IMG/VR virus record: IMGVR_UViG_3300045922_000602
Span: 1-54,283 of that record
From: a virus
Length of the DNA stretch: 54,283 nt
Reading direction: 5' to 3' (one strand)
Part shown: piece after piece, positions 1-54,283 of the stretch
How positions within the stretch are numbered: the stretch's first letter is position 1
Layout: each line of letters begins with the position of its first letter
Translations under genes and position numbers: made by a program
Notes under the pieces: model-generated
Seen by the model: only the letters and a program-made list of their open reading frames with translations
The model's database searches: none
What the model was told of the DNA's origin: nothing

Positions 1-126
1 CGCAAATTCGGCCATTCCCGTCTACGCCACAGTCCGGAGGATATGTTTATGTTGTTCCTCAATGCTCCAGCAGCAGCTAATGGTCTACTCATCTACGACA
101 AGGATCGTCATCCCTGCGGCAGTCTC
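1..126. repeat. Direct terminal repeat (circular overlap), left copy
   Basis: Positions 1-126 are identical to 54151-54276. After this the two copies diverge: here a run of 11 C follows, at the other end GCCCGGC follows. An exact overlap of about this size is what a de Bruijn assembler leaves when it closes a circular or circularly permuted molecule, so this is most likely an assembly overlap and not a biological terminal repeat. The C run is probably an artefact at the join. Confidence 0.9.
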
Positions 127-313
127 CCCCCCCCCCGTCGGCGTGTATGCCCTCCTACCAGCGAATTACCACAGTGTGTGGATTTGCCGTGAACGCCCAA
201 ATACCATCCAACTCGGCTTTCACTATGTCATGTTCTCTTGGGATTACTGTACTTTTGCGCCCGAACGACCTAGATCCCACCGCCGAAAGTCCTCTACGGA
301 GTCACAATGCTGA
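49..313 (+). pseudogene. Left-array small paralogue, frame broken at a C tract
   Basis: A ribosome site (CCGGAGG, 34-40) precedes ATG at 43 and 49. The frame from 49 reads MLFLNAPAAANGLLIYDKD up to CGSL, then hits the run of C at 126-136. The matching continuation (GVYALLP, then YHSVWICRERPN) is in another frame and ends at 313. The neighbour at 545-796 has both halves in one frame, so this gene is probably intact in the real genome and broken here by an assembly error at the contig join. Across the junction, the upstream gene from 54022 reads into this one in frame without a stop. Function unknown. Confidence 0.6.
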
Positions 314-543
314 CCATCTTAACCAGCATGTCCCATGGCGAAGTACTTGTAGTGCGTGGCCCAGACCGGCGTAGTTGGGGTGATCTATCCCCGCAGGGTC
401 TCTCGGCTTACGGTTTTGCCAACGGTCGAAGTGGTATGGTCATCTCCCGTTGTGGTGCGGTTGCCTTCTGTGTAAGTCCGCCCTATATCCAAGCACATAC
501 CGACTGTGCGATCATCGAAGTCAAGGGGAATAGGAGGAAATAA
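307..543 (+). CDS. Left-array small paralogue (78 aa)
   Basis: The ATG at 307 overlaps the end of the previous gene. The protein starts MLTILTSMSHGEVLVV and shares with the protein from 917 the pattern VLVVRxPDxxSxGxxSxxGxxAxxxxxGRSxxxISR, ending in DCAIIEV. The family pattern is a hydrophobic beta-like start, a charged turn, a Gly-containing strand and a second half with conserved Arg and Cys. No known domain is recognised. It belongs to a tandem run of about twelve diverged copies spanning the circular junction. Confidence 0.65.
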   Translation: MLTILTSMSHGEVLVVRGPDRRSWGDLSPQGLSAYGFANGRSGMVISRCGAVAFCVSPPYIQAHTDCAIIEVKGNRRK

Positions 544-544
544 C

Positions 545-796
545 ATGCTATTCCTCCACGCCCCCCAAATGGATGATGGGCTGTTTATCTGCGACAGGAA
601 TCATAATCACTGCGGCAGCTTTACCACCCTCGGTGTGGATGCCGTTCTACCAAAAGGGTATCACAGTGTGGGGTTTTGCCGCGAACGCCCAAATATTATT
701 CAATTCGGCTTCCACCACGTCGCCTTCTCTGAGTATGATTGCACCTTTGTGCCCAAACACTCCCGGTCCAACCGCCGGAAGCCACCACGGAGGTAA
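545..796 (+). CDS. Left-array small paralogue (83 aa)
   Basis: The start at 545 follows a good ribosome site (TAGGAGGAAAT, 530-540). An upstream in-frame ATG at 506 is less likely because it lies inside the previous gene. The sequence (MLFLHAPQMDDGLFICDRN, then HCGSFTTLGVDAVLPKGYHSV and CRERPNIIQFGFHHV) closely matches the split gene at 49-313, so these two are a recent pair. It has a basic C-terminus (SRSNRRKPPRR). Function unknown. Confidence 0.7.
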   Translation: MLFLHAPQMDDGLFICDRNHNHCGSFTTLGVDAVLPKGYHSVGFCRERPNIIQFGFHHVAFSEYDCTFVPKHSRSNRRKPPRR

Positions 797-797
797 A

Positions 798-923
798 ATG
801 CTAACCCTCGCAATTAGTATCTTCAACAGCGGGTCACTTGTAGTGCACGATTCGACATTTGTGGTTCACGATTCAGATCACCATGCGGCACAGTTGCCAC
901 TTGACAAGAGGTACATATGCTAA
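798..923 (+). CDS. Left-array truncated paralogue (41 aa)
   Basis: ATG at 798 follows CGGAGGTAAA. The protein begins MLTLAISIFNSGSLVVHDS, matching the start of the next gene (MLIAASIFNSETLVVRDP), then contains a short duplication (FVVHDSDHH) and ends early at 923 after reading into a copy of the intergenic segment (TGCGGCNCAG...CACTTGACAAG) that also occurs at 1151-1175. It looks like an internally deleted copy of the 917 gene. Possibly not functional. Confidence 0.5.
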   Translation: MLTLAISIFNSGSLVVHDSTFVVHDSDHHAAQLPLDKRYIC

Positions 924-1171
924 TCGCAGCTAGTATCTTCAACAGCGAGACACTCGTAGTGCGAGACCCGGATCACCATTCTGTTTGGGGTAGCTTCTCG
1001 CAGAGAGGTATCACGGCCTTCGACCATAGCATCGGTCGGAGTAGTCTGCTCATCACCCGTTTTGGCAGGGTCGAATCCTACGTAAGCTTTCGCTATGCCA
1101 AAGCATATATCGACTGTGCGCTTATCGAAATCGAGGAGGACAGGGATAAATGCGGCGCAGCTGGCACTTGA
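917..1171 (+). CDS. Left-array small paralogue (84 aa)
   Basis: The start at 917 follows AGAGGT at 907-912 and overlaps the end of the truncated copy. The protein is MLIAASIFNSETLVVRDPD, then a GSFSQRGITAF segment, GRSSLLITRFG and a Cys/acid-rich end (YIDCALIEIEEDRDKCG). It is the closest relative of the 307-543 protein. No domain recognised. It belongs to the tandem array and is presumably expressed with its neighbours. Confidence 0.65.
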   Translation: MLIAASIFNSETLVVRDPDHHSVWGSFSQRGITAFDHSIGRSSLLITRFGRVESYVSFRYAKAYIDCALIEIEEDRDKCGAAGT

Positions 1172-1196
1172 CAAGCAGACCGCAATTTGTTATAGT
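1168..1196 (+). promoter_or_regulatory. Sigma70-like promoter, leaderless start
   Basis: TTGACA (1168-1173), a 17-bp spacer, then TATAGT (1191-1196). The next six bases (GCGCAT) are followed directly by ATG at 1203, so the predicted transcript begins at the start codon. This is the same geometry as the promoters in the 40-46 kb array. Confidence 0.65.
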
Positions 1197-1202
1197 GCGC
1201 AT

Positions 1203-1427
1203 ATGCTAATCGTAAAAAACAAACCTGATGAAAGTACTTTGACACTACACAATTTGACTGGGCAAATGTGTGGGTGGATCGACACATCAAGCCTCTGTGC
1301 CCTCTCCCCCCGGAGATTAAAAAGCATATGGGTTTTTCGCTCCTTTGACTGCGTCCGACGTGAGAGGCACTCTGTAATTCATGCAGCGTGGCACTCTTGT
1401 GCCTTCACCACAGAGGACATATGCTGA
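1203..1427 (+). CDS. Left-array small paralogue (74 aa), leaderless
   Basis: The chosen ATG lies 6 bp after a TATAGT -10 box, which excludes the upstream in-frame ATG at 1095. The protein starts MLIVKNKPDESTLTLHNLTG, with a CGWIDTSSLCALSP segment matching the family Gly-strand-Ala-Pro pattern, then VFRSFDCVRRERHSV. Function unknown. It is one of the few array genes with its own recognisable promoter, so it may start a sub-operon running to 2305. Confidence 0.65.
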   Translation: MLIVKNKPDESTLTLHNLTGQMCGWIDTSSLCALSPRRLKSIWVFRSFDCVRRERHSVIHAAWHSCAFTTEDIC

Positions 1428-1633
1428 TACGAGCTGATGCCGGTCATTTCATCGTAATCTCCAGTCATAATCGCTTTTGCGGGTATATCGACTCGTTCGG
1501 CTTTCGCGCCGTCTGTCCATCACCCAAGTACCTCACTCAGGTCTTCCGCGACTCCACAGAGCCACGCCAAGTATCACGGTTCAAGGGCCATTTCGTTGGT
1601 ACATACAGCAACGTGTGCTTCGTATCATGCTGA
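1421..1633 (+). CDS. Left-array small paralogue (70 aa)
   Basis: ATG at 1421 (after GAGGACAT) overlaps the previous stop. The protein is MLIRADAGHFIVISSHNRF, then CGYIDSFGFRAVCPSP, which is the family core (two Gly-strands followed by Ala and Pro), and a divergent second half ending VCFVSC. Function unknown. Confidence 0.6.
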   Translation: MLIRADAGHFIVISSHNRFCGYIDSFGFRAVCPSPKYLTQVFRDSTEPRQVSRFKGHFVGTYSNVCFVSC

Positions 1634-1911
1634 TCGCAAAGGACATATACGGCACTTTGGCCCTTTTCGCAAGGGGTTCCAATTTGCCTGACGAAGACGG
1701 CCTCTGTGGCCACGTGTATGATGACGGTATCGTAGCCTACTTCCCCGGAAAGGGGTTTCACCGCTGTGTCCTTATACGCCGTGTAGATAGCTATGTTTCA
1801 CAACCATTCTTACCATTTGGAGTGAAGGCGTTATGTCACGAGACTCAGTGCTCACTGCCAGGTTCGAGCGCGGGGAGATCCTCTTCTACGCGCGAGCGAA
1901 GAGAGCGTTGA
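1627..1911 (+). CDS. Left-array small paralogue (94 aa)
   Basis: ATG at 1627 overlaps the previous stop. It begins MLIAKDIYGTLALFARGSN, followed by LCGHVYDDGIVAYFPGKGFH, the family core, and CVLIRRVDSYV. The C-terminal 30 residues are Ser/Arg-rich and overlap the next gene in another frame, so the last part may be extra read-through beyond the conserved domain. Function unknown. Confidence 0.55.
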   Translation: MLIAKDIYGTLALFARGSNLPDEDGLCGHVYDDGIVAYFPGKGFHRCVLIRRVDSYVSQPFLPFGVKALCHETQCSLPGSSAGRSSSTRERRER

Positions 1912-2063
1912 CTTGTTGTGGTCATCTCAATGACATGGGGTTGACCGCCCTGGTAGACAAATACGCTCTCGGGTGCACTGTCGAGCGCAGTGGGGCGTAC
2001 CAATCGCCTCGTTGCATCATGGTCGCCTCTGTGCGCCCCGACAAAGTAGCATTTCTTGAATAA
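1833..2063 (+). CDS. Left-array small paralogue (76 aa)
   Basis: ATG at 1833, after AAGGCGTT. The sequence MSRDSVLTARFERGEILFYAR, then CCGHLNDMGLTALVDKYALG and CTVERSGAY, keeps the array pattern (ILFYxR ... GxLNxxGLTAL ... VER). It overlaps the tail of the preceding gene by about 80 bp. Function unknown. Confidence 0.55.
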   Translation: MSRDSVLTARFERGEILFYARAKRALTCCGHLNDMGLTALVDKYALGCTVERSGAYQSPRCIMVASVRPDKVAFLE

Positions 2064-2071
2064 CCCCGCTT

Positions 2072-2305
2072 ATGACCGCGAGAGTAACAGATAACAGCGT
2101 TATCTTCTACGATCATACAAGCCGCTCAATCGGCTTGCTAGGCCCCTACGGCTCTAATATTTGCCTCTACGGCTGGCTGCCGCAGAAGCACCTGGTGGAG
2201 ATCGTATGCCGCGATAGCTGGTCCCCCTTTGATGCTGCTATGCGAAACTTCGTCTCAGCCTCACCCACCTCTGTGTACTATCTCAAGCCCCCCGAAACGT
2301 GTTGA
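2072..2305 (+). CDS. Left-array small paralogue (77 aa), last copy
   Basis: ATG at 2072. MTARVTDNSVIFYDHTSRS, then GLLGPYGSNICLYGWLPQKH and VEIVCRDSW keep the array pattern (VIFYDxxSRSIGLLGxxG...LP). It is the last recognisable member before the recombination and replication genes. No terminator hairpin is visible after it. Function unknown. Confidence 0.6.
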   Translation: MTARVTDNSVIFYDHTSRSIGLLGPYGSNICLYGWLPQKHLVEIVCRDSWSPFDAAMRNFVSASPTSVYYLKPPETC

Positions 2306-2693: not shown

Positions 2694-2937
2694 AGCTATC
2701 AGGTTCTTGCGCGCCGTGCGGGCCGCCCTGCCGGGCCGTAGAATGCTACACATCGACGAGTTGTATCGTCTCGCACGTACAAGGCATAACAGCTCGTTCG
2801 CGTATGAGATAGTGGCCAATGACCCGGACGACTCGGACGCAATCGAGGCCCTCCGCCGTCGTGCTTCCTCTCTACAAGACGAACCAAGGGTATTGGTAAT
2901 GGTGTGTAAAGACAACCCAGAAGGGATTGACGCGTGA
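2674..2937 (+). CDS. Hypothetical protein (87 aa)
   Basis: ATG at 2674 follows the ribosome site ATGGAGGAAA (2661-2670), so the longer reading from 2446 is rejected. The protein is MFPVENEAIRFLRAVRAAL with a middle DELYRLARTRHNSSFAYEIV and an acidic part (NDPDDSDAIEAL), likely mostly helical. The stop overlaps the GTG start of the nuclease gene (GTGA), so the two are translationally coupled. Function unknown. Confidence 0.6.
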   Translation: MFPVENEAIRFLRAVRAALPGRRMLHIDELYRLARTRHNSSFAYEIVANDPDDSDAIEALRRRASSLQDEPRVLVMVCKDNPEGIDA

Positions 2938-3671
2938 CACTATCATTCAGCCGCCTCTCAGCATTCATGATGTGCCCGTCGTATTTCGCGGCCAAATACC
3001 TATTGGGTGTGCCAGAACAAGAATCACCCGAAATGTATTACGGTAAGGTCGTACACGCACTGCTTGCCGAACAGTTCGGCGGTCCCTCCAGCGTACGCGA
3101 AGAAGATCGCACGCTGCTTGAGCAGGTTGCTCCGGAGATTTTAGCCCGTGCGAAAAACGCCGCCGAGCGTGTAAAGGCCTTTTGGCCAGCAGCGGACGTA
3201 GTCGCGGTTGAGCGGGATTTCGAGTGTCAGCTCCCAAATACCGGTTTCATCATACGAGGCCGATTTGACATGCTCGAACGCAGACCGTCCGGTGTTACGG
3301 TTGTTGATTGGAAGACAGTAGGGTCAAGCCGCTATGCCGTTGAGGCTGCTGCCGCCAGACATGCCATGTCTTTGCAGGGCACAATCTACTATCTCGCGAC
3401 TCGCCAGTTTTTTAAGGACGTCAACCCCCGTGTGCACTTCGTCTCGATCAATGACACAGAAGTCCGCGACGAGGTAGTAGAGATCCACGAAGCCCGCGTG
3501 CACCGCGACATCAACAGCATTGTGTATTATGCGGAATCCCTGCAGCAGCTACTCCAGATGCCGCCGGAGTTATGGCCACTGAATACGACCGCATGCGTGC
3601 AAGGTACACGTCTTTGTCCATATTACGATTTACATAAGGACCCTTTCAATGATGCAACCAAAGAAACTTAG
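2934..3671 (+). CDS. PD-(D/E)XK nuclease (RecB/Cas4-like)
   Basis: The 245-residue protein starts with GTG overlapping the upstream stop. Visible family features are SFSRLSAFMMCPSYF (Cys14), GKVVHALLAEQF with His41, then RGRFDMLE (Asp112) and VVDWKT (Asp125, Lys127) as the D-(D/E)xK core. Two more cysteines lie near the end (Cys221, Cys228; ACVQGTRLCPYY), suggesting an iron-sulfur cluster as in Cas4/AddB nucleases, though I see only these three well-placed cysteines. The family processes DNA ends. The overlap with the Sak4-like gene suggests a joint role in phage recombination. Confidence 0.8.
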   Translation: MTLSFSRLSAFMMCPSYFAAKYLLGVPEQESPEMYYGKVVHALLAEQFGGPSSVREEDRTLLEQVAPEILARAKNAAERVKAFWPAADVVAVERDFECQLPNTGFIIRGRFDMLERRPSGVTVVDWKTVGSSRYAVEAAAARHAMSLQGTIYYLATRQFFKDVNPRVHFVSINDTEVRDEVVEIHEARVHRDINSIVYYAESLQQLLQMPPELWPLNTTACVQGTRLCPYYDLHKDPFNDATKET

Positions 3672-12680: not shown

Positions 12681-14438
12681 TTATTCTTCCACTCCTAACT
12701 TTTTAAAGAAGCTATCGAGTTTGCTCCCTTTTTTCTTTGGCGCAGGTGCCAACGCTTTAGGTGAGGCTGCCCCAGCTGCGGGTGTTTTTGTGGTTGATTG
12801 GGGCACGAGGCTGGGGGCCTGCGGACGTACCGTAAAGGGCTTTACTGGCACCCCCGTTTGCTCGAATGCAGAAGGAATGTATTCGCCTATGTTCTCGATG
12901 TTCTCGAAAGCCCCCACCCCGATTACGGCTGTCTGGAGGCCTTCTTGCAGCTTCTGATTCATGTATGATCTATATTGCCGCAGTAGACTTGGTATGACAC
13001 TGGGAGACCCAATGGCCTTTTCAATAAGGCCCGCATATTCAGCAGCCAATGTGACCGAACCTCGCCCCTGTGTATGCACAAATGCTAATTGTGCGGCAAG
13101 TTGTGGTATGCGCGCTAAAAGCTCTGCATACCCTTTGGTGGTGATTGGCACACCCTTCTTTTGGAGGATGTGGTTGAGCAGACCTCGCACACTTCCAGCG
13201 ACGGCTTGCGACCAGGTCGTAACATCCCTCATATCTTGCGGTGGGTTTGATTTCTGCACCGCCTCCATGATTGCCGTGCGCTCTTCTGGAGTAAATGTGA
13301 TTTGTTTCTCTGGTATCTTCTTGCCGAGGAACTCCTTTTGCACGATGTCATCAATTGCATCGATGACGTGGAGGCCAGTCACAACCGCATTGTGCGTATT
13401 TAGGAGGTTCGAGACCTGCCCGGCCTGGAACAGCGTGCTCATCTTTTTCAAGTTGTAGTATTTATTGGCGAGATCGAGGCGCTGCATCGCCAAGCCGATT
13501 TCTGGGTTGTCCTTAGCGAATTTGTTGAGGGCGCTGACGACGTTATCGAGCTGTTTCATCCTCTTAATCGCCGGAAGTTGCGAGGCATACTCAACCTGAC
13601 CGGCTAAGGCGTTGAGGGCTACTTGGATGGAGGGAGACGGACTCTGCCTCGCAAGGGCTGGAATCGCGGCTCTTAGTGTGCTCTCGAACTCACCCATTGC
13701 TCCCAACATCTGTGTTTGCGTCTCCTGCGCATCAGGGACCTCCGAGACTGCCCCAGTACGTTCGTCGATCACAAGGGGCTGCCCAGTGAATGGGGAGAAG
13801 TAAAGACGGAAATTGGGGATCTTTCCGGCTTCGATCTCGAGTTCTCGCGCTTTCAGCGTGAGACCTTGCCTCGCCACTTCAAGTTGCGTGTGGATCTTTT
13901 CAGGCTCGTATTCAGCCTCAGTGGCTTCTTTTTGGATCCCATAAATATCCTTTGCACGCTCGCGTGCGAATGTATCTAATGCTATGCCGGATTGCAGTGC
14001 ACGTTCCTGCATGCCCCGCAACCCGCCCGCGATGTTTGAGATGGCGAAGCCCGGCCCGGAGACCGGAGGTGGAGGTTGCATCGACGCTACTGTACCGAGC
14101 GCCCCAACGATACCGCTCTGCAGTTGTGGCGAGAGCTTTCCGAGCAGTTTTGTCAGGGGGCCATATCCGAAATGGTGTGTGGGCAGTGCTAAAGGACTCA
14201 CCTGTGTAGGCAGTCCGAGGCCCTCGGCGACGATATTCGCCTCTTGTGGGGGGCGTGGCGCGGAGATCGTTGGAACCAATCCAACCGGAGCGGGGATTGC
14301 TGGAGGCGGCGGTTCCGGTTGCGCGGGAGGAGGGAGAAACGGCGTTTCGGCGAGCGGCGGTACATTCGGCACCACCAGTTGCGGTGCCACCAACGGCACC
14401 TGTTGCTGTAACTGCGGGAAATCTTCCGGATTTGGCAT
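12681..14438 (-). CDS. Internal virion protein candidate, Pro-rich N-terminus (585 aa)
   Basis: Residues 1 to about 75 are very rich in Pro (PPLAETPFLPPPAQPEPPPP), then helical sequence with charged and Gln-rich segments, and a Pro/Ala/Lys-rich C-terminus (APAPKKKGSKLDSFFKKL). The low-complexity ends and helical middle fit a structural or ejection protein. It lies between the 236-aa and 594-aa proteins of the same operon. No domain recognised. Confidence 0.5.
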   Translation of the reverse strand: MPNPEDFPQLQQQVPLVAPQLVVPNVPPLAETPFLPPPAQPEPPPPAIPAPVGLVPTISAPRPPQEANIVAEGLGLPTQVSPLALPTHHFGYGPLTKLLGKLSPQLQSGIVGALGTVASMQPPPPVSGPGFAISNIAGGLRGMQERALQSGIALDTFARERAKDIYGIQKEATEAEYEPEKIHTQLEVARQGLTLKARELEIEAGKIPNFRLYFSPFTGQPLVIDERTGAVSEVPDAQETQTQMLGAMGEFESTLRAAIPALARQSPSPSIQVALNALAGQVEYASQLPAIKRMKQLDNVVSALNKFAKDNPEIGLAMQRLDLANKYYNLKKMSTLFQAGQVSNLLNTHNAVVTGLHVIDAIDDIVQKEFLGKKIPEKQITFTPEERTAIMEAVQKSNPPQDMRDVTTWSQAVAGSVRGLLNHILQKKGVPITTKGYAELLARIPQLAAQLAFVHTQGRGSVTLAAEYAGLIEKAIGSPSVIPSLLRQYRSYMNQKLQEGLQTAVIGVGAFENIENIGEYIPSAFEQTGVPVKPFTVRPQAPSLVPQSTTKTPAAGAASPKALAPAPKKKGSKLDSFFKKLGVEE

Positions 14439-19037: not shown

Positions 19038-20246
19038 TCAGAAGTTCCTTTCGTAGTACATTCCACCTATATCAATGGTTTTATCCACGGCTGTTAGTGT
19101 CCTTAAGTAGACTACGATAAGTTGTGGTTGATCGGCTGCTGGGAGGGTTGTGGTGTTCGTGCAGACTGTGTTGCCGTCAATACGGAATTGATATGCGCTC
19201 CCAGTCCATTCTACCTCGAACAGATGGAGGTTTGTGTCTGCCGTGACTCCAGAGTCGTTTATAGTGCATGAGGATGCATTGCATGTTAGACATTTATATG
19301 TTGTATCCGAGGCGCTAGTTGAGTACCTGAACCCGGCAACGTGCATACTAGATGGTGTGTCTTGTGACATTATATTAATGTTATTCGACAAACCAATCCA
19401 ACTACGAACAGCTGTAAGCGATCCAATTCGAGCATATATTCTGGATACCTCATCACGGCGGTATCGGCCTATCAAAACTGTTCTAATGCCAGCCTGATTA
19501 TTGGTGGTAGCCCCCGTAGCAAATCGTACGGTTGAGTGAGGGTTGCCAGACAATCCTAAAAAAGTTTGTGAACCAACCACCTCTATAGACATACCCAATG
19601 TTGTTATGTTAAATGGAGGCATGCCTACAAATAAGATTGAGAACATCCGTGGTAAAAATAATGACGGCATGGCTGCCTTGGGTTCCCATTGGGAGCCACC
19701 CCATGCTAGTACATCTCCAGGGGATGGGGTGGAGGGGGAGACCGTGCGGCCACGGATTCTTTCGACTACGGTTGAGTTAAGGTTGCCTGTTACGTCGCCT
19801 GCGGCGGTATGGCCGTGATTGCTAGCCGCGACATTGCTCAGGTTGGCTCCGAGCGCAGTTTCGATCGCTTTGACTTCGGCGGCGAGTTGGTTGTGATGGT
19901 GTGCTGCATGTACACCCTGTACTTCCGCACCAGCGCTGTGAGCCGCCGCCGCCGAGTCATCGAAACCTCGTCCTCCCGTGCAGACTGTGAGCGTGTTGCC
20001 GGAGATGGAGCAGACCTTGATGTACTCGTCGTCAATGGCGACAACGAGCGGCGCAGTGAACTCCGAACCGTCCGCAACGGGGATGGACGTATCCGATGCG
20101 GAGATGCCCGCTGTTAGGGTTGAGCTGGCAAGGTTTTTGGCGACGAGTAGGTCTTGATCGTTTGCTACTGCCGAGGGAAAAACGGGTGAGTTGGGGTTTT
20201 GGGCCAGAAGGACAGCGGGAAGAAGAATGGACCAAAGCCAGCGCAT
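19038..20246 (-). CDS. Tail-fibre/receptor-binding paralogue 1 (402 aa)
   Basis: The start at 20246 (MRWLWSILLPAVLLAQNPNS) matches the starts of the two paralogues; the longer in-frame start would overlap the upstream gene. It has a Sec-like signal segment, then FPSAVANDQDLLVAKNLASS, a conserved AEVKAIETALGANLSNVAAS helix, a variable middle, and a conserved LamG/concanavalin-like C-terminus (LHLFEVEWTGSAYQFRIDGN ... GGMYYERNF). Third in transcription order of a tandem triplication. Likely receptor binding. Confidence 0.65.
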   Translation of the reverse strand: MRWLWSILLPAVLLAQNPNSPVFPSAVANDQDLLVAKNLASSTLTAGISASDTSIPVADGSEFTAPLVVAIDDEYIKVCSISGNTLTVCTGGRGFDDSAAAAHSAGAEVQGVHAAHHHNQLAAEVKAIETALGANLSNVAASNHGHTAAGDVTGNLNSTVVERIRGRTVSPSTPSPGDVLAWGGSQWEPKAAMPSLFLPRMFSILFVGMPPFNITTLGMSIEVVGSQTFLGLSGNPHSTVRFATGATTNNQAGIRTVLIGRYRRDEVSRIYARIGSLTAVRSWIGLSNNINIMSQDTPSSMHVAGFRYSTSASDTTYKCLTCNASSCTINDSGVTADTNLHLFEVEWTGSAYQFRIDGNTVCTNTTTLPAADQPQLIVVYLRTLTAVDKTIDIGGMYYERNF

Positions 20247-20253
20247 AGCGACG

Positions 20254-21462
20254 TTAGAAGTTCCTTTCGTAGTATATTCCACCTACATCAATGGTCTTGT
20301 CTACAGCTTGTAGAGTAGATATTTGGGCCGTGATACCTAGTGGTTGGTTGGCTGCTGGAAGGTTTGTGGTGTTTGTGCAGACCAAGTTGCCGTCAATGCG
20401 GAATTGATACGCGCTTCCGGTCCATTCTACCTCGAACAGGTGCAGGTTTGTGTCTGCCGTGACTCCAGAGTTTGTATTTGTGCATGAGCTCGCGTTGCAT
20501 GTTATACACCGAAATGTGGCGTCTGAAGAAGTCGTCGAATATCGGAATCCAGCAACATGCATATCAGATGGTGTGTCTGTTAATATTATACTCCCTGTGT
20601 CACTCGACAGAGCAATCCAACTACGGATGGCTGTAAGCGGTCCAATTCGAGCATATGCTCTGAATACCTCATCACGGCGGTATCGGCCTATCGAATAATT
20701 CGTTCTAACGCCAGCAATATTATTGGTGGTAGCCCCAGTGGCATATTGCACAGTTAAGTGAGGGTTGTCAGACAATCCTAAAGCAGTTTGTGTGCCATCC
20801 GATGCTAGAAACATACCCCGTGCTTGTAAGGAAGTTTCATTTGCCAGCGCGATTGAGAATATCCGTAACGAAAATAATGAAAGTGTGGCTGCTTTTGGTT
20901 CCCATTGAGAGCCGTTCCATGTTAGTGCGTCTCTGGAGGATGGGTCGGTAGAGGATACCACGCGGCCACGGATCTTTTCGACTACGGTTGAGTTCAAATT
21001 GCCTGTTACATCACCTGCAGCAGTGTGACTGTGGTTGCTAGCTGCGACATTGCCCAAGTTAGCTCCGAGCGCAGTTTCAATTGCTTTGACCTCGGCGGCG
21101 AGTTGGTTGTGATGGTGCGCCGCATGCACACCCTGTACTTCCGCACCAGCGCTGTGAGCAGCTGCTGTCGAGCCGTCGAAACCCCGTCCGCCCGTGCAGA
21201 CTGTGAGTGTGTTGCCGGAAATAGAACAGATCCTAATGTACTCGTCGTCAATGGCGACAACAAGTGGTGCAGTGAACTCCGAACCGTCTACAACGGGAAT
21301 GGACATATCTGACGCTGTGATAGCTGCCGTCAGGGTCGAGCTAGCGAGGTTCTTGGCAACGAGCAAGTCCTGGTCGTTTACCACCGCTGACGGGAAGACG
21401 GGTGAGTTGGGGTTCTGGGCTAGAAGGGCAGTTGGAAGGAGGATAAACCAAAGACGGCGCAT
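20254..21462 (-). CDS. Tail-fibre/receptor-binding paralogue 2 (402 aa)
   Basis: Same architecture as its two neighbours: signal-like MRRLWFILLPTALLAQNPNS, FPSAVVNDQDLLVAKN, the AEVKAIETALGANLGNV helix, a variable middle (residues about 190-300), and the conserved LamG-like end ending DVGGIYYERNF. The 7-bp spacing before paralogue 1 equals the spacing after paralogue 3, as expected for unequal-crossover duplication. The N- and C-terminal parts are almost identical between copies, while the middle diverges. Confidence 0.65.
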   Translation of the reverse strand: MRRLWFILLPTALLAQNPNSPVFPSAVVNDQDLLVAKNLASSTLTAAITASDMSIPVVDGSEFTAPLVVAIDDEYIRICSISGNTLTVCTGGRGFDGSTAAAHSAGAEVQGVHAAHHHNQLAAEVKAIETALGANLGNVAASNHSHTAAGDVTGNLNSTVVEKIRGRVVSSTDPSSRDALTWNGSQWEPKAATLSLFSLRIFSIALANETSLQARGMFLASDGTQTALGLSDNPHLTVQYATGATTNNIAGVRTNYSIGRYRRDEVFRAYARIGPLTAIRSWIALSSDTGSIILTDTPSDMHVAGFRYSTTSSDATFRCITCNASSCTNTNSGVTADTNLHLFEVEWTGSAYQFRIDGNLVCTNTTNLPAANQPLGITAQISTLQAVDKTIDVGGIYYERNF

Positions 21463-21469
21463 AGCGGCA

Positions 21470-22681
21470 TTAGAAGTTTCTTTCGTAGTACAGTCCGCCA
21501 ATATCAATAGTCTTATCCCCGGACGATAGTTTGAACACGCGGGTTATGATACCTAGTGGTTGGTTGGCTGCTGGAAGGTTTGTGGTGTTTGTGCAGACCA
21601 CATTACCGTCAATACGGAATTGATACGCACTCCCAGTCCATTCTACTTCAAATAGGTGTAGGTTCGTGTCTGCCGTGACCCCGGAGTTGTTTACGGTGCA
21701 TGAGGATGTATTGCATGTTACGCATCGATATGTTGTATCTGAGGCGTTAGTTGAGTATCGAAACCCAGCGACGTGCTTATCAGACGGTGTGTCTTGCTCT
21801 TGTATACTTGGGTCACTAACTAAAGCGATCCAATGACGAATGCTTGTTGTTGACCCAATCCGAATGTATGCCCGGAATACTTCATCGCGACGAAACCGAC
21901 CCAACGGATTTGTCCCAGGGCCAGCGCCAAGGGCGTGATTACTGGAAGTAGATGACCGTAGGAGCAAATGAGGATTGCTACCACTAGACAAGTCTACGGC
22001 AGACCGCGAACCAAAATCATACAGAGTCATACCTAATGTTTCTAGGTTGCTAGTTTCATTTGCCAGCGCGATTGAGTATATCCGTGGTGAAAATAATGAC
22101 GGCGTGGCTGCTTTGGGCTCCCATTGGGAGCCGCTCCATGTTGGTACGTCCCTGGGGGATGGAGCGGCAGAAGATACCACGCGGCCACGGATTCTTTCGA
22201 CTACGGTTGAGTTAAGGTTGCCTGTTACGTCGCCTGCGGCGGTGTGGCTGTGGCTGCTCGCTGCGACGTTTCCTAAGTTAGCCCCGAGGGCGGTTTCGAT
22301 TGCCTTGACTTCGGCGGCGAGTTGGTTGTGGTGGTGCGCTGCATATACGCCCCGCACTTCTGCGCCGGAGCTGTGAGCAGCTGCTGTCGAGCCGTCGAAA
22401 CCCCGTCCGCCCGTGCAGACTGTGAGCGTGTTGCCGGAGATGGAGCAGACCTTGATGTACTCGTTGCCAATGGCGACAACGAGCGGTGCAGTGAACTTCG
22501 AACCATCCGCTACTGGAATGGACGTGGCCGACGCGGAGATGTTTGCTGTCAAGGTTGAGCTGGCGCGGTTTTTGGCGACGAGCAAGTTCTGGTCGTTTGC
22601 TACTGCCGAGGGGAAGACGGGAGAGTTGGGGTTCTGCGCTAGAAGCGCAGCGGGGAGGAGAATGAACCAAAGGCGGCGCAT
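21470..22681 (-). CDS. Tail-fibre/receptor-binding paralogue 3 (403 aa)
   Basis: First of the triplet in transcription order, beginning directly at MRRLWFILLPAALLAQNPNS, only 3 bp after the 124-aa gene. It has the same N-terminal region, chaperone-like helix region and LamG-like end (GGLYYERNF), but the most divergent middle (ALANETSNLETLGMTLYDF, then GSNPHLLLRSSTSSNHALG). A Sec-type signal peptide on a virion protein is odd: it may be a lipid/membrane-binding tip, or the protein may be exported from the infected cell. Confidence 0.65.
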   Translation of the reverse strand: MRRLWFILLPAALLAQNPNSPVFPSAVANDQNLLVAKNRASSTLTANISASATSIPVADGSKFTAPLVVAIGNEYIKVCSISGNTLTVCTGGRGFDGSTAAAHSSGAEVRGVYAAHHHNQLAAEVKAIETALGANLGNVAASSHSHTAAGDVTGNLNSTVVERIRGRVVSSAAPSPRDVPTWSGSQWEPKAATPSLFSPRIYSIALANETSNLETLGMTLYDFGSRSAVDLSSGSNPHLLLRSSTSSNHALGAGPGTNPLGRFRRDEVFRAYIRIGSTTSIRHWIALVSDPSIQEQDTPSDKHVAGFRYSTNASDTTYRCVTCNTSSCTVNNSGVTADTNLHLFEVEWTGSAYQFRIDGNVVCTNTTNLPAANQPLGIITRVFKLSSGDKTIDIGGLYYERNF

Positions 22682-47875: not shown

Positions 47876-49035
47876 CAAGACTGGAAATGGAAATGCTCCT
47901 GCTCAACACGGGCATTCAGATTGAAAAGCTCAAGTCCTGTGCACACCGTGCACGCACAGTCCTCGAAAACGGGAGATTTGTCATCCACCTTCACGAAGAT
48001 TGGTGGAACAAACTCCCGGAAGTCTACCAAGTAGAGGTATTGTGCCACGAACTCCTGCACATCCTACGCGGCGACTTCCTGCGACTCCCCCACATAAAAG
48101 ATGAGGAGGACCGAATATACTACAAATATGCTGCCGACGCTCTAATCAACCAGAACCTCCCGATCATCCGGATGTATGAGCCGGATGCTTGGGTTTACGA
48201 GCGTCTCTATCACACGCATGGCGATGACTCATGGCCCTCGCCAGAGCGCCTTCCCAGCACGCAGTGGCTGATGAAGAAACTCCGCGAATTAGAGCAAAAC
48301 CAAACCAAATGTGAGGACGGATGTTGTGATACAATGCGGCATCCTCCGCAGTCCACGCCCGGTGACATCGACGCGGCCACAGCAGAAGCTCTCGGGCGAG
48401 CGGTGGAGCAACTGCGCGAACAGTTTGCAAACGACCCGCTCGCCAAACGAATCCTGCAAGCAAGCACCAGCTTTGCTGCGGGCCGCGAATCATTACATGA
48501 GGTACTGACTGTCGAGCCATCCTGGATCGACACCGCGCTCCTCGAACGCATTCTGCAGCGTATGTTACGAAGCGCCCCACACGCACCGGGGGCGAAAGTC
48601 AAACGGCGAAGCTACCGTCGCCGCCATGGCATCTTCCCGATCAGTATACCGATGCCGACAGCGTCCTGTATTCTCGCGGTGGACGTATCGGGGTCGATGC
48701 ACAACTATTACCCACAGCTCCAGTGGTTGAAATCACGACTTGCACGTGAATTCCAGGCTGAGATCTGGCACTGGAGTGATAACGCCATACGGGTGAAGAA
48801 CCTCCACACCGCGCCCTGGTTCGGGGGCACGGACATCCGCCCATTGCTCCAGAAAATCCCTAAACGTGGCCCAGCTGCGCTCGTCGTCGCAACAGACGGC
48901 TACATCTCACCGCCCCCCAAGGCAGAATGGTTACCTACTTACCCCGTGGTATGGTATATGATTACAGACAAAAAAGTACCAATTCGACCCAATGACTTAC
49001 TCCTGAGGGTAAGACCATGCATGAAGAACAATTGA
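47872..49035 (+). CDS. VWA-domain protein with HELLH metallopeptidase motif
   Basis: The start at 47872 overlaps the MoxR stop. The 387-residue protein has CHELLHILRGDF (HExxH at 59-63), a low-similarity middle with Cys (CEDGCC) and a C-terminal VWA domain with a complete MIDAS: DVSGS (271-275), GGTD (Thr320) and ATDG (Asp342). This is the DUF2201-type layout (predicted metallopeptidase plus VWA), normally paired with a MoxR ATPase, as here. It may process or remodel host or phage proteins. Confidence 0.85.
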   Translation: MTRLEMEMLLLNTGIQIEKLKSCAHRARTVLENGRFVIHLHEDWWNKLPEVYQVEVLCHELLHILRGDFLRLPHIKDEEDRIYYKYAADALINQNLPIIRMYEPDAWVYERLYHTHGDDSWPSPERLPSTQWLMKKLRELEQNQTKCEDGCCDTMRHPPQSTPGDIDAATAEALGRAVEQLREQFANDPLAKRILQASTSFAAGRESLHEVLTVEPSWIDTALLERILQRMLRSAPHAPGAKVKRRSYRRRHGIFPISIPMPTASCILAVDVSGSMHNYYPQLQWLKSRLAREFQAEIWHWSDNAIRVKNLHTAPWFGGTDIRPLLQKIPKRGPAALVVATDGYISPPPKAEWLPTYPVVWYMITDKKVPIRPNDLLLRVRPCMKNN

Positions 49036-49508
49036 TTAATAAATGTTTAAACGGTGAGCAGGCTGCATACTATGACTTGGTGCGTTACCTACAACCCGTA
49101 GCGGCCCGTATCGTACACAGTCGACTGCCGGCAGAGGCGGACCGTCAGGACGCCATACAAGAAACCTTAGTACGTGCTTGTCTACACCTCAATTGCTTTC
49201 GGGGCAAATCCCTCAAAGCTTGGGTGGCAGCAATTGCACGTAACTATTGTTGTGAGTATTATCGACGAAGACATGACACTATCACTTACGTGGACGAATT
49301 GCCTGACCTACCTGATAACAGTATGTTGCGGGCAGCTCACGCGAACTGGGAACTGTCCGCGTTGCAGCAGCTCGCTGGCGATGACTGGGCTGTCCTCAAG
49401 GCCTACGCCGAACACGGCCCTAAAGTGGCGGAGGCACTAGGCATACCACACAAAACAATCAGGGTGAGAATATGCCGAATTCGCACACGACTCCGAAATG
49501 GGAGGTGA
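49017..49508 (+). CDS. ECF-like sigma factor
   Basis: The 163-residue protein has region 2 (AEADRQDAIQETLVRACLHL, then WVAAIARNYCCEYYRRRHDT) and region 4 (AVLKAYAEHGPKVAEALGIP, KTIRVRICRIRTRLRN) with a helix-turn-helix. No extra domains. Group IV sigma factors direct RNA polymerase to particular promoters; a phage copy could switch expression to the minus-strand operon. It overlaps the VWA gene by 19 bases. Confidence 0.85.
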   Translation: MHEEQLINKCLNGEQAAYYDLVRYLQPVAARIVHSRLPAEADRQDAIQETLVRACLHLNCFRGKSLKAWVAAIARNYCCEYYRRRHDTITYVDELPDLPDNSMLRAAHANWELSALQQLAGDDWAVLKAYAEHGPKVAEALGIPHKTIRVRICRIRTRLRNGR

Positions 49509-49509
49509 C

Positions 49510-49782
49510 ATGCTCAAGAAGATACAAAAACAAGTGTCCGAATATGGTTGGTCTGAAGAGACTCTGCGTTCCTTCGCGGCGCACTTGCACACAATCGCCT
49601 CCGGATTGTGCCAAGACACGGCACTAGCGAAGGAGGCGGTAGAGGACCTAACCAGTACACTGGCCCTATCATTGATACGGATGCACAATCCATCGGCAGT
49701 GTGCAGGGCCGCGCTGCGACGGCGTATCGCGCATTTGCGTGCACGCCGTAACAAGATAGTCAACTTGGAGGACGAGCGGTGA
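49510..49782 (+). CDS. Sigma-region-2-like protein without region 4 (90 aa)
   Basis: GGGAGGTGAC precedes ATG 49510. It reads MLKKIQKQVSEYGWSEETLR, LCQDTALAKEAVEDLTSTLA and AVCRAALRRRIAHLRARRNK. Its middle aligns by eye with region 2 of the adjacent sigma factor (DAIQETL ... WVAAIARN ... RRRH), but the promoter-binding region 4 is absent. It could modulate the sigma factor or polymerase, or be a degenerate copy. Resemblance is moderate. Confidence 0.5.
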   Translation: MLKKIQKQVSEYGWSEETLRSFAAHLHTIASGLCQDTALAKEAVEDLTSTLALSLIRMHNPSAVCRAALRRRIAHLRARRNKIVNLEDER

Positions 49783-50135
49783 ATCCGAAAGACAAAATTG
49801 GACGACAGAAACCACAACTACACTTACTACCTCCACGCGCACTAGTCGACTGTGCAAGGGCGCTTGAAGATGGCGCGCGGAAGTATGGCGAATGGAACTG
49901 GCGCAGCACACGGGTTGCCGCGACAGTCTACCTATCAGCCGCGATGCGCCACATGATGGCATATCTGGATGGCGAATTCTATGACCCCGATTCGGGCCAC
50001 CCGCACCTAGGGCATGCCATGGCCTCGATGGCCATCCTGCTCGATGCACACGCAGGGGGATGGATTATTGATGACCGCCCTCGGGTCAAAGGAACAGGCC
50101 CAAAGGCGATCCGAGAAAGGAGAAAGAAGAAATGA
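49779..50135 (+). CDS. dATP/dGTP diphosphohydrolase-like (DUF5664) protein
   Basis: The 118-residue protein has QLHLLPPRALVDCARALEDG, GARKYGEWNWR, YLSAAMRHMMAYLDGEFYDP and SGHPHLGHAMASMAILLDAH. These E-x-G-x-x-K-Y and H-x-x-x-H/A-D patterns are typical of the DUF5664/dGTP_diPhyd_N family of nucleotide pyrophosphohydrolase-like proteins. Likely adjusts dNTP pools. It overlaps both neighbours by 4 bp. Confidence 0.7.
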   Translation: MNPKDKIGRQKPQLHLLPPRALVDCARALEDGARKYGEWNWRSTRVAATVYLSAAMRHMMAYLDGEFYDPDSGHPHLGHAMASMAILLDAHAGGWIIDDRPRVKGTGPKAIRERRKKK

Positions 50136-50656: not shown

Positions 50657-51090
50657 AAGCCCATGAGAGATTCTACCGCCTCCTCGTCCAATTTCTCAAG
50701 CCGATCATAGCGCCAGAATACGACATCGATATTGCAGAAGCGACCGCAGAAGACGGACTCGATGAGAGTCTTGATGCGGTCGTTTCTGTTAATACCACCT
50801 ATCTTTTCGCCAATATCAGAATGCACCCGAATCTACAAAAACAATTTCGCGCGGGAATGTATCGCTACATCGGTGAGGTCGTGGTGCACGAAATGGCGCA
50901 CATCCTAACATGGGAACTCCTCGAAACAAGCGAGCAACTCGCACGCGATGACCAAGCACAGCAGCACACGCAAAACATATATGAGCGGACAACACAGCGT
51001 ATCACCAACTCATTGATGCGGCTCTTGGGCGATGGGTGGGCGGACAAAATCGCCGCCGAAGCAAAAACACGAAGGAGGTTGAAAGTATGA
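50653..51090 (+). CDS. HExxH zinc-dependent peptidase-like protein (145 aa)
   Basis: The central helix VVVHEMAHILTWEL carries HExxH, the zincin signature, near the middle. It reads MKAHERFYRLLVQFLKPIIA, then a helical C-terminus (TQRITNSLMRLLGDGWADKI). It resembles small phage metalloprotease-like proteins, but the third zinc ligand is not identified. It overlaps both neighbours by 4 bases. Target unknown. Confidence 0.65.
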   Translation: MKAHERFYRLLVQFLKPIIAPEYDIDIAEATAEDGLDESLDAVVSVNTTYLFANIRMHPNLQKQFRAGMYRYIGEVVVHEMAHILTWELLETSEQLARDDQAQQHTQNIYERTTQRITNSLMRLLGDGWADKIAAEAKTRRRLKV

Positions 51091-53192
51091 TGGTAAATGA
51101 AAAGAATATTCCAGAGCGCTTGAAGCAGGAAAAGCGCTGGGTGCTGTGGAAACCAGAGGTTCGTAGCGAGAAGCCGACCAAGGTACCCGTCGCGCCGAAC
51201 GGCTGCTACATCAACGCTACAGATTCGACTAATTGGCTTACGTTTGACGATGCCGTACGATATGCACGCGAACGTGGATGGGGCGTCGGTTTCGCCCTCG
51301 GTGACGGCTACGTTGGCATCGACATCGATAGGTGCTACGTCGATGATGAACGCGGTCACAAGGTGTTGACGCCACTAGCGGATCATGTCGCGCGCAGCCT
51401 GCAGAGCTACACGGAGAGGTCTCCGAGCGGCGAGGGTATCCACATAATCGTATGGGCCGGGCGTGATATTGCCATCAACCGTGTGGGGCCCGTTGAGGTC
51501 TACACGCGGGGGAGGTTCTTCACTATCACGGGTGATGCGGCGACCGGATCTGGAGTCAATGATGCCACGCAGGGACTCGCGTGGCTCGAACATCAACTGA
51601 CACAATGGAGGATGATTCTGCAACACGTCCGGCGGAAGCGTAGGGAGTTCATTGATGCGGCGGATCCATACTCGCGGTACAGCAGCCCAAGCGAAGCTGA
51701 TATGGCGCTCGCCGGTGAGGTAGTCCGCAAGCTAGCCGATCTGGGCGCTCCTCATCAAACGATAGAGGCCGAAGCAATGATGGCAATGTGGTTATTCCCA
51801 AAGATGTGTCGGGGGAAGTGGTTGCGTACGGACTACCTGCGCGACACGATCAAAAAGGCCATCGAGGGCCTCGAAGAACAGAAGAAGGAACACAACACAG
51901 AGAAGAAGAAGAAGCTGATTGGGGCCGACATACTGGAACTGCTGCGCTCCGACGACTTCCCTGTCGACGTCCGGACCAACATCTTGGGGCGAATCGGCGA
52001 GTGTTATCTGGACGGGTCCTGGATGCAAGACGCATGGGAGAGGGCTTCTGTTGAAATAGAGAACCAGTTGCGGAAACGCGGCTTTCAGTCCACATACCAG
52101 GCTATTGAGAAAGCGATCGGTGCCCGCGTTGAGGAGAACGTGTACAACCCGATGAAGGAATGGCTCGAGGGCTTGAGCTGGGACGGAACGCCGCGTATGG
52201 AGAGGTGGCTGATTGATTTCTTCGGCGTGGAGGACACGCTGCTGGCACGGGAGGCCGCCAAACGGTTCTTGATCGGGGCTGTTGCACGCGCATTGGAGCC
52301 TGGCTGCCAAATGGATTGGATGTTAGTGCTGTATGGGCCCCAAGGCATTGGGAAGTCCTCCGGAATCAGAACGCTATTCGGCAAAGAATGGACGACCAGT
52401 TGGTCTTTCGACAGTGGAGCAAGTAAGAGGGATAATTTGCTGGCCCTTTACACCGGCTGGTGCGCCGAAGTCGCGGAGTTGGCCGGTATGGATAAGAGAG
52501 ACAGCAAAGAGATGAGGGACCTCATTTCCGCGCTAGAAGACCCGCTCCGAAGACCATACGGGCGCGGAAGCAGCAAGTATCCCCGCCACACCGTATTAAT
52601 TGGTACGACCAATGACAGTGAGATCCTCCGCGACGAGACCGGCAACCGCCGATTCATAATTATGGCATGTGGTGCACCCCAAGTAGACCTCAGCAAGATG
52701 CAAGCTGCACGCGAACAGCTTTGGGCCGAGGCCCTGCACGCATACCGGCGCGAGTGGAAATGGTGGTGGGATCTAGACGATCTCACGGACCTGCGCAGAC
52801 AGATTGCGGAGATGCACCGCCGGTTCGAAAGGCCGCTACACAAGGAGGAGGCAATTAGGTCGTTCTGCATGAACCCTGCTGCATACGCACTATACGCGGC
52901 GGGGACCCGGATTGAGGAAACGGCGAAGAGGTGCGTTCCGGGGTTCGTGAACACAGGAGTAATCGCCGACATCGAGCGTATGTCGCGGTACGAGGTCGCG
53001 AGGGTATTGCGGAAAATGGGCTACGAGCAAACACGTATCAACAATGAGCGCTTCTGGTACGATCCCGCTGTGTACCTCCACCTGAAGGACAGCTATTCGA
53101 GCTGGGACCAACTTTTGGAGGATCGCGCCAAATCAGTCAATAAACTACAGTTAACACCGCCGGATGAACTACAGTCGGAGGAACTAAAGTGA
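51087..53192 (+). CDS. PrimPol-VirE primase-helicase
   Basis: AGGAGGTTGAAAGT precedes ATG 51087 (51090 also possible). The 701-residue protein has an AEP/PrimPol-type N-terminal domain (GIDIDRC, Asp79/Asp81; SGEGIHI, His119) and a C-terminal VirE/SF3-like helicase domain (GPQGIGKS, Walker A 417-424; IGTTNDSEILRDETGNRRF with a later Arg). It primes and unwinds DNA for the phage polymerase. A stretch of charged Lys/Glu (KKEHNTEKKKK, about 270-282) links the two. Confidence 0.85.
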   Translation: MMVNEKNIPERLKQEKRWVLWKPEVRSEKPTKVPVAPNGCYINATDSTNWLTFDDAVRYARERGWGVGFALGDGYVGIDIDRCYVDDERGHKVLTPLADHVARSLQSYTERSPSGEGIHIIVWAGRDIAINRVGPVEVYTRGRFFTITGDAATGSGVNDATQGLAWLEHQLTQWRMILQHVRRKRREFIDAADPYSRYSSPSEADMALAGEVVRKLADLGAPHQTIEAEAMMAMWLFPKMCRGKWLRTDYLRDTIKKAIEGLEEQKKEHNTEKKKKLIGADILELLRSDDFPVDVRTNILGRIGECYLDGSWMQDAWERASVEIENQLRKRGFQSTYQAIEKAIGARVEENVYNPMKEWLEGLSWDGTPRMERWLIDFFGVEDTLLAREAAKRFLIGAVARALEPGCQMDWMLVLYGPQGIGKSSGIRTLFGKEWTTSWSFDSGASKRDNLLALYTGWCAEVAELAGMDKRDSKEMRDLISALEDPLRRPYGRGSSKYPRHTVLIGTTNDSEILRDETGNRRFIIMACGAPQVDLSKMQAAREQLWAEALHAYRREWKWWWDLDDLTDLRRQIAEMHRRFERPLHKEEAIRSFCMNPAAYALYAAGTRIEETAKRCVPGFVNTGVIADIERMSRYEVARVLRKMGYEQTRINNERFWYDPAVYLHLKDSYSSWDQLLEDRAKSVNKLQLTPPDELQSEELK

Positions 53193-53472
53193 AATTCTGC
53201 CATCTCAGCCAAGCGCATTTCAAAAAGTTCGGCAGAGCTAAGTATCTTATTTCTTATATCTATATACTACTCTGCCATACTTTCCATACATTTACATATA
53301 TAAAATAGAAGGAATAGGAGAATATAGGAAGGATGGTATATATATATGTATAGGTAGGGGAAATATATATATATATAGCGCGTATAGTGAATTCGTTGGC
53401 GGAGCCTGGCAGAGCGGAAGGCCGCGAGGTTTCCCCTTGCGTGCAACCCCAACCGCAGAAAGGAGGCCAAAC
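53193..53472. other. AT-rich island after the primase gene
   Basis: Roughly 200 bp (about 53225-53390) is much richer in A/T than the genome around it, with alternating TA runs (53337-53350 and 53366-53380). Then GC-rich sequence and a ribosome site (AGGAGG, 53461). A 39-codon frame from GTG at 53189 exists but looks random. It could be an origin or promoter region. No iterons found by eye. Confidence 0.4.
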
Positions 53473-53778
53473 GTGCTATTTTTAAAGGCAGACCCCGTCC
53501 GTCCAGACATACTCTTTACCGTCCACAAGATACTGTGCCACCGTAACGGAGGTGGGCGCACATATACCAGAACAAAATACATCGGCCAAATAGACGAATG
53601 GGGCCTATATGCCAACATCCCCTTCAGTGTCAGTGTGTTACGCATCCCCCGCAGCGAACCAGGGGCCATCTACCGCCAGAAAAGTACGGGATTTGTAACG
53701 GCCCATTTTGATCGTTGCTTCTTCCTTGGTGAACGCGACCGCCCCCGCGTGCAACCCCCGACTGCAGAAAGGAACTGA
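53473..53778 (+). CDS. Left-array small paralogue (101 aa)
   Basis: GTG at 53473 follows AGGAGG with 6-base spacing and gives VLFLKADPVRP, matching the start of the next gene (MLFLKIAPDWR); the upstream ATG at 53437 is rejected. It continues YIGQIDEWGLYANIPFSVSV and RSEPGAIYRQKSTGFVTAHFD. A 22-residue tail after the homologous region runs through a repeated leader. First recognisable array member. Confidence 0.65.
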   Translation: MLFLKADPVRPDILFTVHKILCHRNGGGRTYTRTKYIGQIDEWGLYANIPFSVSVLRIPRSEPGAIYRQKSTGFVTAHFDRCFFLGERDRPRVQPPTAERN

Positions 53779-53780
53779 AC

Positions 53781-54038
53781 ATGCTCTTTCTAAAAATAGC
53801 TCCTGACTGGCGAGAAGTACTCTTTACCGCCAACAAAACACAATACATCGGCCAAGTAGATGAGCGAGGCCTGTACGCCTTCATCCCCCACCCTCTCAGC
53901 CCCTATGTGTTATCGATCCTCCGCAGCGAACCCGAAGGCATCAGCCACCAGAAAAGTATGGGGTTGGTAATGGCCCGTCCTGATCGCTGCTACATTCTCA
54001 ACATTCGTGGAGAGCCTCCTGATGGTACTGCCAGCTAA
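53781..54038 (+). CDS. Left-array small paralogue (85 aa)
   Basis: AAAGGAACTGAAC precedes ATG 53781. It reads MLFLKIAPDWREVLFTANKT, YIGQVDERGLYAFIPHPL, LSILRSEPEGISHQKSMGLV and ARPDRCYIL. It is very similar in order to the preceding gene, a tandem duplication. The short leader (GCGTGCAACCCC...GCAGAAAGGA) is also shared. Function unknown. Confidence 0.7.
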   Translation: MLFLKIAPDWREVLFTANKTQYIGQVDERGLYAFIPHPLSPYVLSILRSEPEGISHQKSMGLVMARPDRCYILNIRGEPPDGTAS

Positions 54039-54283
54039 AAAGTACCAAATGGTCACTACGGGCCCAAATTTGCCCTATAACGCGTTTTCAGCAGTGGGTC
54101 GCTACCAGGTATTACCCACCACCCTCCGACGCGTCCTAGGGCAAATATGGCGCAAATTCGGCCATTCCCGTCTACGCCACAGTCCGGAGGATATGTTTAT
54201 GTTGTTCCTCAATGCTCCAGCAGCAGCTAATGGTCTACTCATCTACGACAAGGATCGTCATCCCTGCGGCAGTCTCGCCCGGC
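54022..54283 (+). CDS. Left-array paralogue, runs across the circular junction (partial)
   Basis: ATG at 54022 overlaps the previous gene by 17 bases. MVLPAKKYQMVTTGPNLPYN, then SAVGRYQVLPTTLRRVLG and IWRKFGHSRLRHSPEDMF resembles the array pattern, and the frame runs without a stop into the next member (MLFLNAPAAANG) at the terminal repeat. So either two paralogues are fused or a stop is missing through an error. It is cut at the contig end. Confidence 0.5.
   Translation, partial: MVLPAKKYQMVTTGPNLPYNAFSAVGRYQVLPTTLRRVLGQIWRKFGHSRLRHSPEDMFMLFLNAPAAANGLLIYDKDRHPCGSLAR
54151..54276. repeat. Direct terminal repeat (circular overlap), right copy
   Basis: Identical to positions 1-126. The last seven bases (GCCCGGC, 54277-54283) differ from the C run in the left copy, so the join sequence is uncertain. 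Confidence 0.9.

Follow-up and report, generated by a model that had tools for sequence, protein, structure and literature searches.

A row of small, strongly diverged protein-coding genes was found in the genome of an uncultured tailed phage (an IMG/VR virus record; the whole stretch analysed, 54,283 nucleotides, is called the window), and its proteins change about tenfold faster than those of ordinary genes do at a comparable dS, where paralogs are compared with orthologs. We consider the chances about even that this is a birth-and-death array whose products bind host factors early in infection, for takeover or counter-defence. The array runs on the plus strand from 53473 through the junction of the record to 2305. 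Positions 54151-54276 are identical to positions 1-126, and this 126-nt overlap of the two ends means that the contig forms a circle although it is classed as linear, so the array continues across the junction, as the initial annotation had it.

The minus strand carries the terminase gene and, assigned by position and relatives, the portal, capsid and tail genes, all at 8-38 kb; the plus strand encodes primase, exonuclease, an AAA protein, PolA and a phosphoesterase. The array sits within this plus-strand replication region, between the primase and the exonuclease. The PolA-type DNA polymerase (4849-7305) has an N-terminal uracil-DNA-glycosylase-like domain fused to the exonuclease and polymerase domains. 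A small sigma-70 region 2 protein and, close to it, a dATP/dGTP diphosphohydrolase-like protein (PF18909) are encoded at 49017-49508 and 49779-50135, and the virion-gene strand holds a tandem of three paralogs, each of about 400 aa, at 19038-22681. To find a host, 84,980 genomes were scanned with the capsid and the terminase, and none matched.

About twelve frames of 41-101 aa had been described for this region, and all are present as described: 11 near-complete genes, one of them broken by a C run, and one truncated copy. They are listed below with the flanking genes and one promoter. Members are named in the text by their first position, and E is the value from leave-one-out profiles, for which each member was dropped, plus its closest partner where the set has one.

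51084..53192, plus strand: flanking gene, primase/helicase with VapE-like domain
53473..53778, plus strand: member 1, GTG start, SD AAGGAGG, 101 aa; E 0.033
53781..54038, plus strand: member 2, 85 aa, recent duplicate of member 1; E 3e-5
49..313, plus strand: member 3, frame broken by an 11-C run at 126-136
307..543, plus strand: member 4, 78 aa, ATGCTGA overlap with preceding stop
545..796, plus strand: member 5, 83 aa, recent duplicate of member 3; E 1e-5
798..923, plus strand: truncated copy, 41 aa, like the start of member 917
917..1171, plus strand: member 7, 84 aa, recent duplicate of 307, ATGCTAA overlap with preceding stop
1168..1196, plus strand: sigma-70-type promoter TTGACA-17-TATAGT (11/12), 6 nt before the ATG of 1203
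1203..1427, plus strand: member 8, 74 aa, presumed leaderless; E 0.0015
1421..1633, plus strand: member 9, 70 aa, ATGCTGA overlap; E 0.0027
1627..1911, plus strand: member 10, 94 aa, ATGCTGA overlap, resembles 917 (z 8.3)
1833..2063, plus strand: member 11, 76 aa; E 6e-5
2072..2305, plus strand: member 12, 77 aa, weakest member, z 3.9 to 1833; E 0.42
2934..3671, plus strand: flanking gene, PD-(D/E)XK exonuclease

All frames are open except the truncated 798 and the C-run-broken 49, whose 3' part (134-313) shares 57% identity with member 545. The C run sits where the two ends of the record cease to agree, and the record of a related phage, G002, likewise terminates in a C run, so the break in 49 was read as probably an artefact of the assembly end and not a mutation. 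No member can be recognised in the 160 nt that separate 53781 from 49; a remnant gene was considered there on the strength of a few bases in common and rejected, DNA alignment giving z of at most 2.7.

To establish homology among the members, we compared them pairwise by Smith-Waterman alignment, and z exceeded 3 in 18 of 55 member pairs, compared with 0 of 91 pairs of random ORFs and 1 of 78 pairs of other small phage proteins. The recent pairs that the initial annotation had picked out stand clearly, with z=37 for 53473/53781, z=38 for 49/545 and z=33 for 307/917. Leave-one-out profiles recovered 53781, 545, 1833, 1203 and 1421 (E 1e-5 to 3e-3), with 53473 marginal (E 0.03), and missed 307/917 (E about 1), 1627 (0.35) and 2072 (0.42). 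The missed members have pairwise links (917-1627, z=8.3; 307-545, z=3.9; 2072-1833, z=3.9). Members 307, 798, 917 and 1627 make up a linked subgroup, and 2072 is weakly attached. A ten-member profile matched every member and no other part of the window, a test that is partly circular. Judged by these comparisons, homology is established non-circularly for about seven members, and because some are linked only pairwise, one shared ancestor for the full set of twelve, though likely, is unproven. The gene order 49, 307, 545, 798, 917, in which 49 pairs with 545 and 307 with 917, shows that a two-gene unit was duplicated, 49-307 having given rise to 545-798/917. The members also share a sequence pattern, as had been proposed: 10 of 12 start with ML, and little or no variation is seen at G24, G30, A33, R46 and C66, numbered as in 545.

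The shared ML(I/T) start is a feature of the stop/start joints between genes as well as of the protein, because in ATGCTRA joints the stop of the preceding gene lies within the Met-Leu start plus the next base. ATGCTRA occurs at 6 of 12 starts, and at four junctions (307, 917, 1421, 1627) the overlap is exactly 7 nt, ATGCTGA or ATGCTAA. An SD match of at least 4 nt precedes 9 of the 12 starts, whereas of 43 further ATGs in this part of the genome 11 have one (p=0.005). Pooled dN/dS over the three recent pairs was 0.47 (CI 0.32-0.68), with single values of 0.35-0.61 and an interval for 307/917 reaching up to 1.16, and it was lowest in the frame that is read (0.47 vs 0.73 and 0.91). Codon usage gave a weak coding signal that fails for 1203, so codon-usage scoring was dropped as the sole coding test. 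Taken together, SD motifs, stop/start overlaps and dN/dS show that the array is protein-coding. As a yardstick, ten orthologous structural and packaging genes were compared with those of the relative G001 (dS 0.5-1.7), and their dN/dS was 0.03-0.10. This yardstick sets paralogs against orthologs, so relaxed constraint after duplication remains compatible with the fast divergence. The initial annotation had claimed strong diversification in tandem and had named a lack of coding pressure as the finding that would count against it; with a dN/dS interval below 1 and a pace some tenfold above ordinary genes, the diversification is that of real proteins under coding pressure.

The mean hydropathy of the members is near zero, so they are probably soluble, and net charge ranges from -2.2 to +6.8, with 7 of 10 basic, which does not match the strongly acidic DNA-mimic type of anti-restriction protein (Ocr, ArdA). 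The structure model of member 545 is all-beta at low confidence (pLDDT 67, pTM 0.46), and a model of one member of an array in G002 is a confident six-strand beta meander (pLDDT 85). Foldseek found nothing with E<0.2 for the window model against the PDB, nor for the G002 model against the PDB and a viral library. The best match, for the G002 model only, was the polo-box PB3 domain of PLK4, also a beta-meander sheet (probability 0.95), at a non-significant E of 0.5 and 7% identity; the window member remained unmatched. We take this likeness as a fold resemblance at most. An all-beta fold may be common to all members of the window array.

Searches for relatives of the family found none outside the window. 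No meaningful family match was obtained in Pfam, PHROGs, NCBIfam, PADLOC or the PDB, tblastn of the members against 50,697 phage records gave no homologs, and no member resembles a known counter-defence protein. Building a profile from the copies and searching phages with it had been proposed as a check, and the profile matched the window only, with relatives in none of 19 related phage records. An alignment of the full member set is too divergent to scan IMG/VR with; scans with the pairs 49/545 and 53473/53781 found none, such two-sequence patterns reaching close relatives only. Syntenic loci in IMG/VR, with primase and polymerase as anchors, were likewise not found, and with the gene at 50132 as anchor G002 was the sole match. 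Searches of one literature library returned no report of such phage arrays.

The closest phage, G001 (L069, 93% terminase identity), is a 17.5-kb fragment that does not include the array region. G002 (IMGVR_UViG_3300031812_000014), which has 84% capsid identity to the window phage, carries fifteen small genes on the minus strand (L070, 355-4436) around an ortholog of 50132 (59-62% identity). Like the window array, it lies in the same early region, beside the 50132 ortholog, and has tight overlaps (4 nt and longer), tandem divergence and beta-rich products; neighbours in it are most alike (0 of 5000 permutations). Its members range from acidic to basic and form their own family without detectable sequence similarity to the window array: 14 were collected by profile, all in G002, and an IMG/VR scan with two of them found G002 itself only. 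A sequence link seen by eye, an A-x-x-x-P stretch, was rejected (HHalign probability 0.1, profiles no better than shuffles). An AT-rich TATA-repeat stretch adjoins the array in both phages (53230-53390 in the window, L070 130-235 in G002) and is possibly an origin or promoter region. More distant relatives, in records of 54-68 kb, have no such array. Tandem small paralogs of another kind occur in the related phages G015 (L065 9357-10403), G011, G010 and G008.

The promoter at 1168-1196 matches the sigma-70 consensus at 11 of 12 bases, as no other site in the genome does. A TANNNT -10 box lying some 12 bp ahead of the start codon is a mark of leaderless bacterial genes (PMC3160421; PMC12340547), and 1203 fits this definition with TATAGT, 6 nt and ATG, so the promoter would drive its leaderless transcription. 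A good -35 box, TANNNT and exactly 6 nt to the start codon were found together at five plus-strand sites, compared with 0.15 expected: 1203 here, and 40950, 41936, 43439 and 46019 in the other array of the phage. Since such sites on this strand are confined to the two arrays, both seem to use host-type promoters that give leaderless mRNAs. That first array (38.2-46.5 kb) includes several genes that contain RWPEAEPxI repeats; its leaderless-type promoters are separate (40915, 41901, 43405 and 45984), and its terminators resemble one another (39433, 40653, 41826, 42372 and 43169). The place of this first array is taken in G001 by two tandem repeat proteins of another type (WRxxGFDPxEA, 13086-13720).

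We infer the role to which we give about even chances from where the array lies, how fast it changes, the type of its promoter and the comparable array in G002; early expression is likewise presumed. Recombination would duplicate one- or two-gene units of small, translationally coupled genes of the early/replication region, the copies would diverge quickly under weak purifying selection, and their products, small and probably all-beta, would bind host factors early in infection, each copy drifting toward a different target or target variant. The initial annotation had suggested immune evasion or toxin inhibition, and this stays plausible given the early-region position, the host-type promoter and the turnover, but no match by sequence or fold points to a particular target. 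A more far-reaching form of the same idea is quite unlikely, namely a dedicated diversification locus in which each phage fills the same early-region site with its own array, copies of one beta-meander scaffold being multiplied via the conserved stop/start junctions into a repertoire of binders of variable host defences, and in which the two families are the same scaffold diverged until their sequences are no longer recognisably related.

The location between primase and exonuclease would also suit replication accessory proteins that work with the primase, exonuclease and polymerase, for example by binding nucleic acid or partners, the copies being dosage or subfunction variants. The basic charge of most members (up to +6.8) agrees with this, but their divergence far exceeds that of the phage's other genes, distant relatives with the same polymerase do without such an array, and the members in G002 are acidic to basic, so that we hold it to be unlikely. 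A mostly non-adaptive origin, with tandem duplicates arising in a recombination-prone spot and decaying under relaxed constraint until few or only one are functional, seems to us improbable to a similar degree. It would account for the truncated copy at 798-923, the 160 nt without a recognisable gene ahead of 49 and the raised dN/dS, including the wide 307/917 interval. Moreover, the searches brought up no other phage with an orthologous array that would make target-driven selection visible, and the divergence could be relaxed constraint after duplication. However, apart from the truncated and C-run-broken ones, the frames have stayed open and bear SD motifs and stop/start overlaps; pooled dN/dS lies under 1, and the second phage retains 15 open frames. 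Superinfection exclusion, immunity or antitoxin-like proteins that guard the infected cell from other phages or host toxins would draw on the same turnover and position as host-factor binding and would fit small, probably soluble products, but no paired toxin was recognised and no family match obtained, which makes this very unlikely.

Inhibitors of bacterial defence are often found among rapidly diverging early phage genes. The lineage keeps a whole row of fast-diverging genes of one family at a definable place, with a tenfold excess of protein change, and the region may be a site where these phages build small host-directed binding proteins. The two arrays yield about 27 family-less candidates, and further ones can be sought as rows of small coupled genes at the same position instead of by sequence similarity. 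Phage anti-CRISPR and counter-defence clusters also encode small family-less proteins side by side, but they usually consist of unrelated genes, often with an aca regulator, whereas the genes here are mutual paralogs that match no known family. Viral arms races are also known for tandem 'gene accordion' expansions. The window copies, which belong to an uncultured phage, differ from these in their age, high divergence and fixation and in lacking near-identical copies from a recent amplification, but what they appear to have in common with them is local tandem copies that diverge in conflict with the host.
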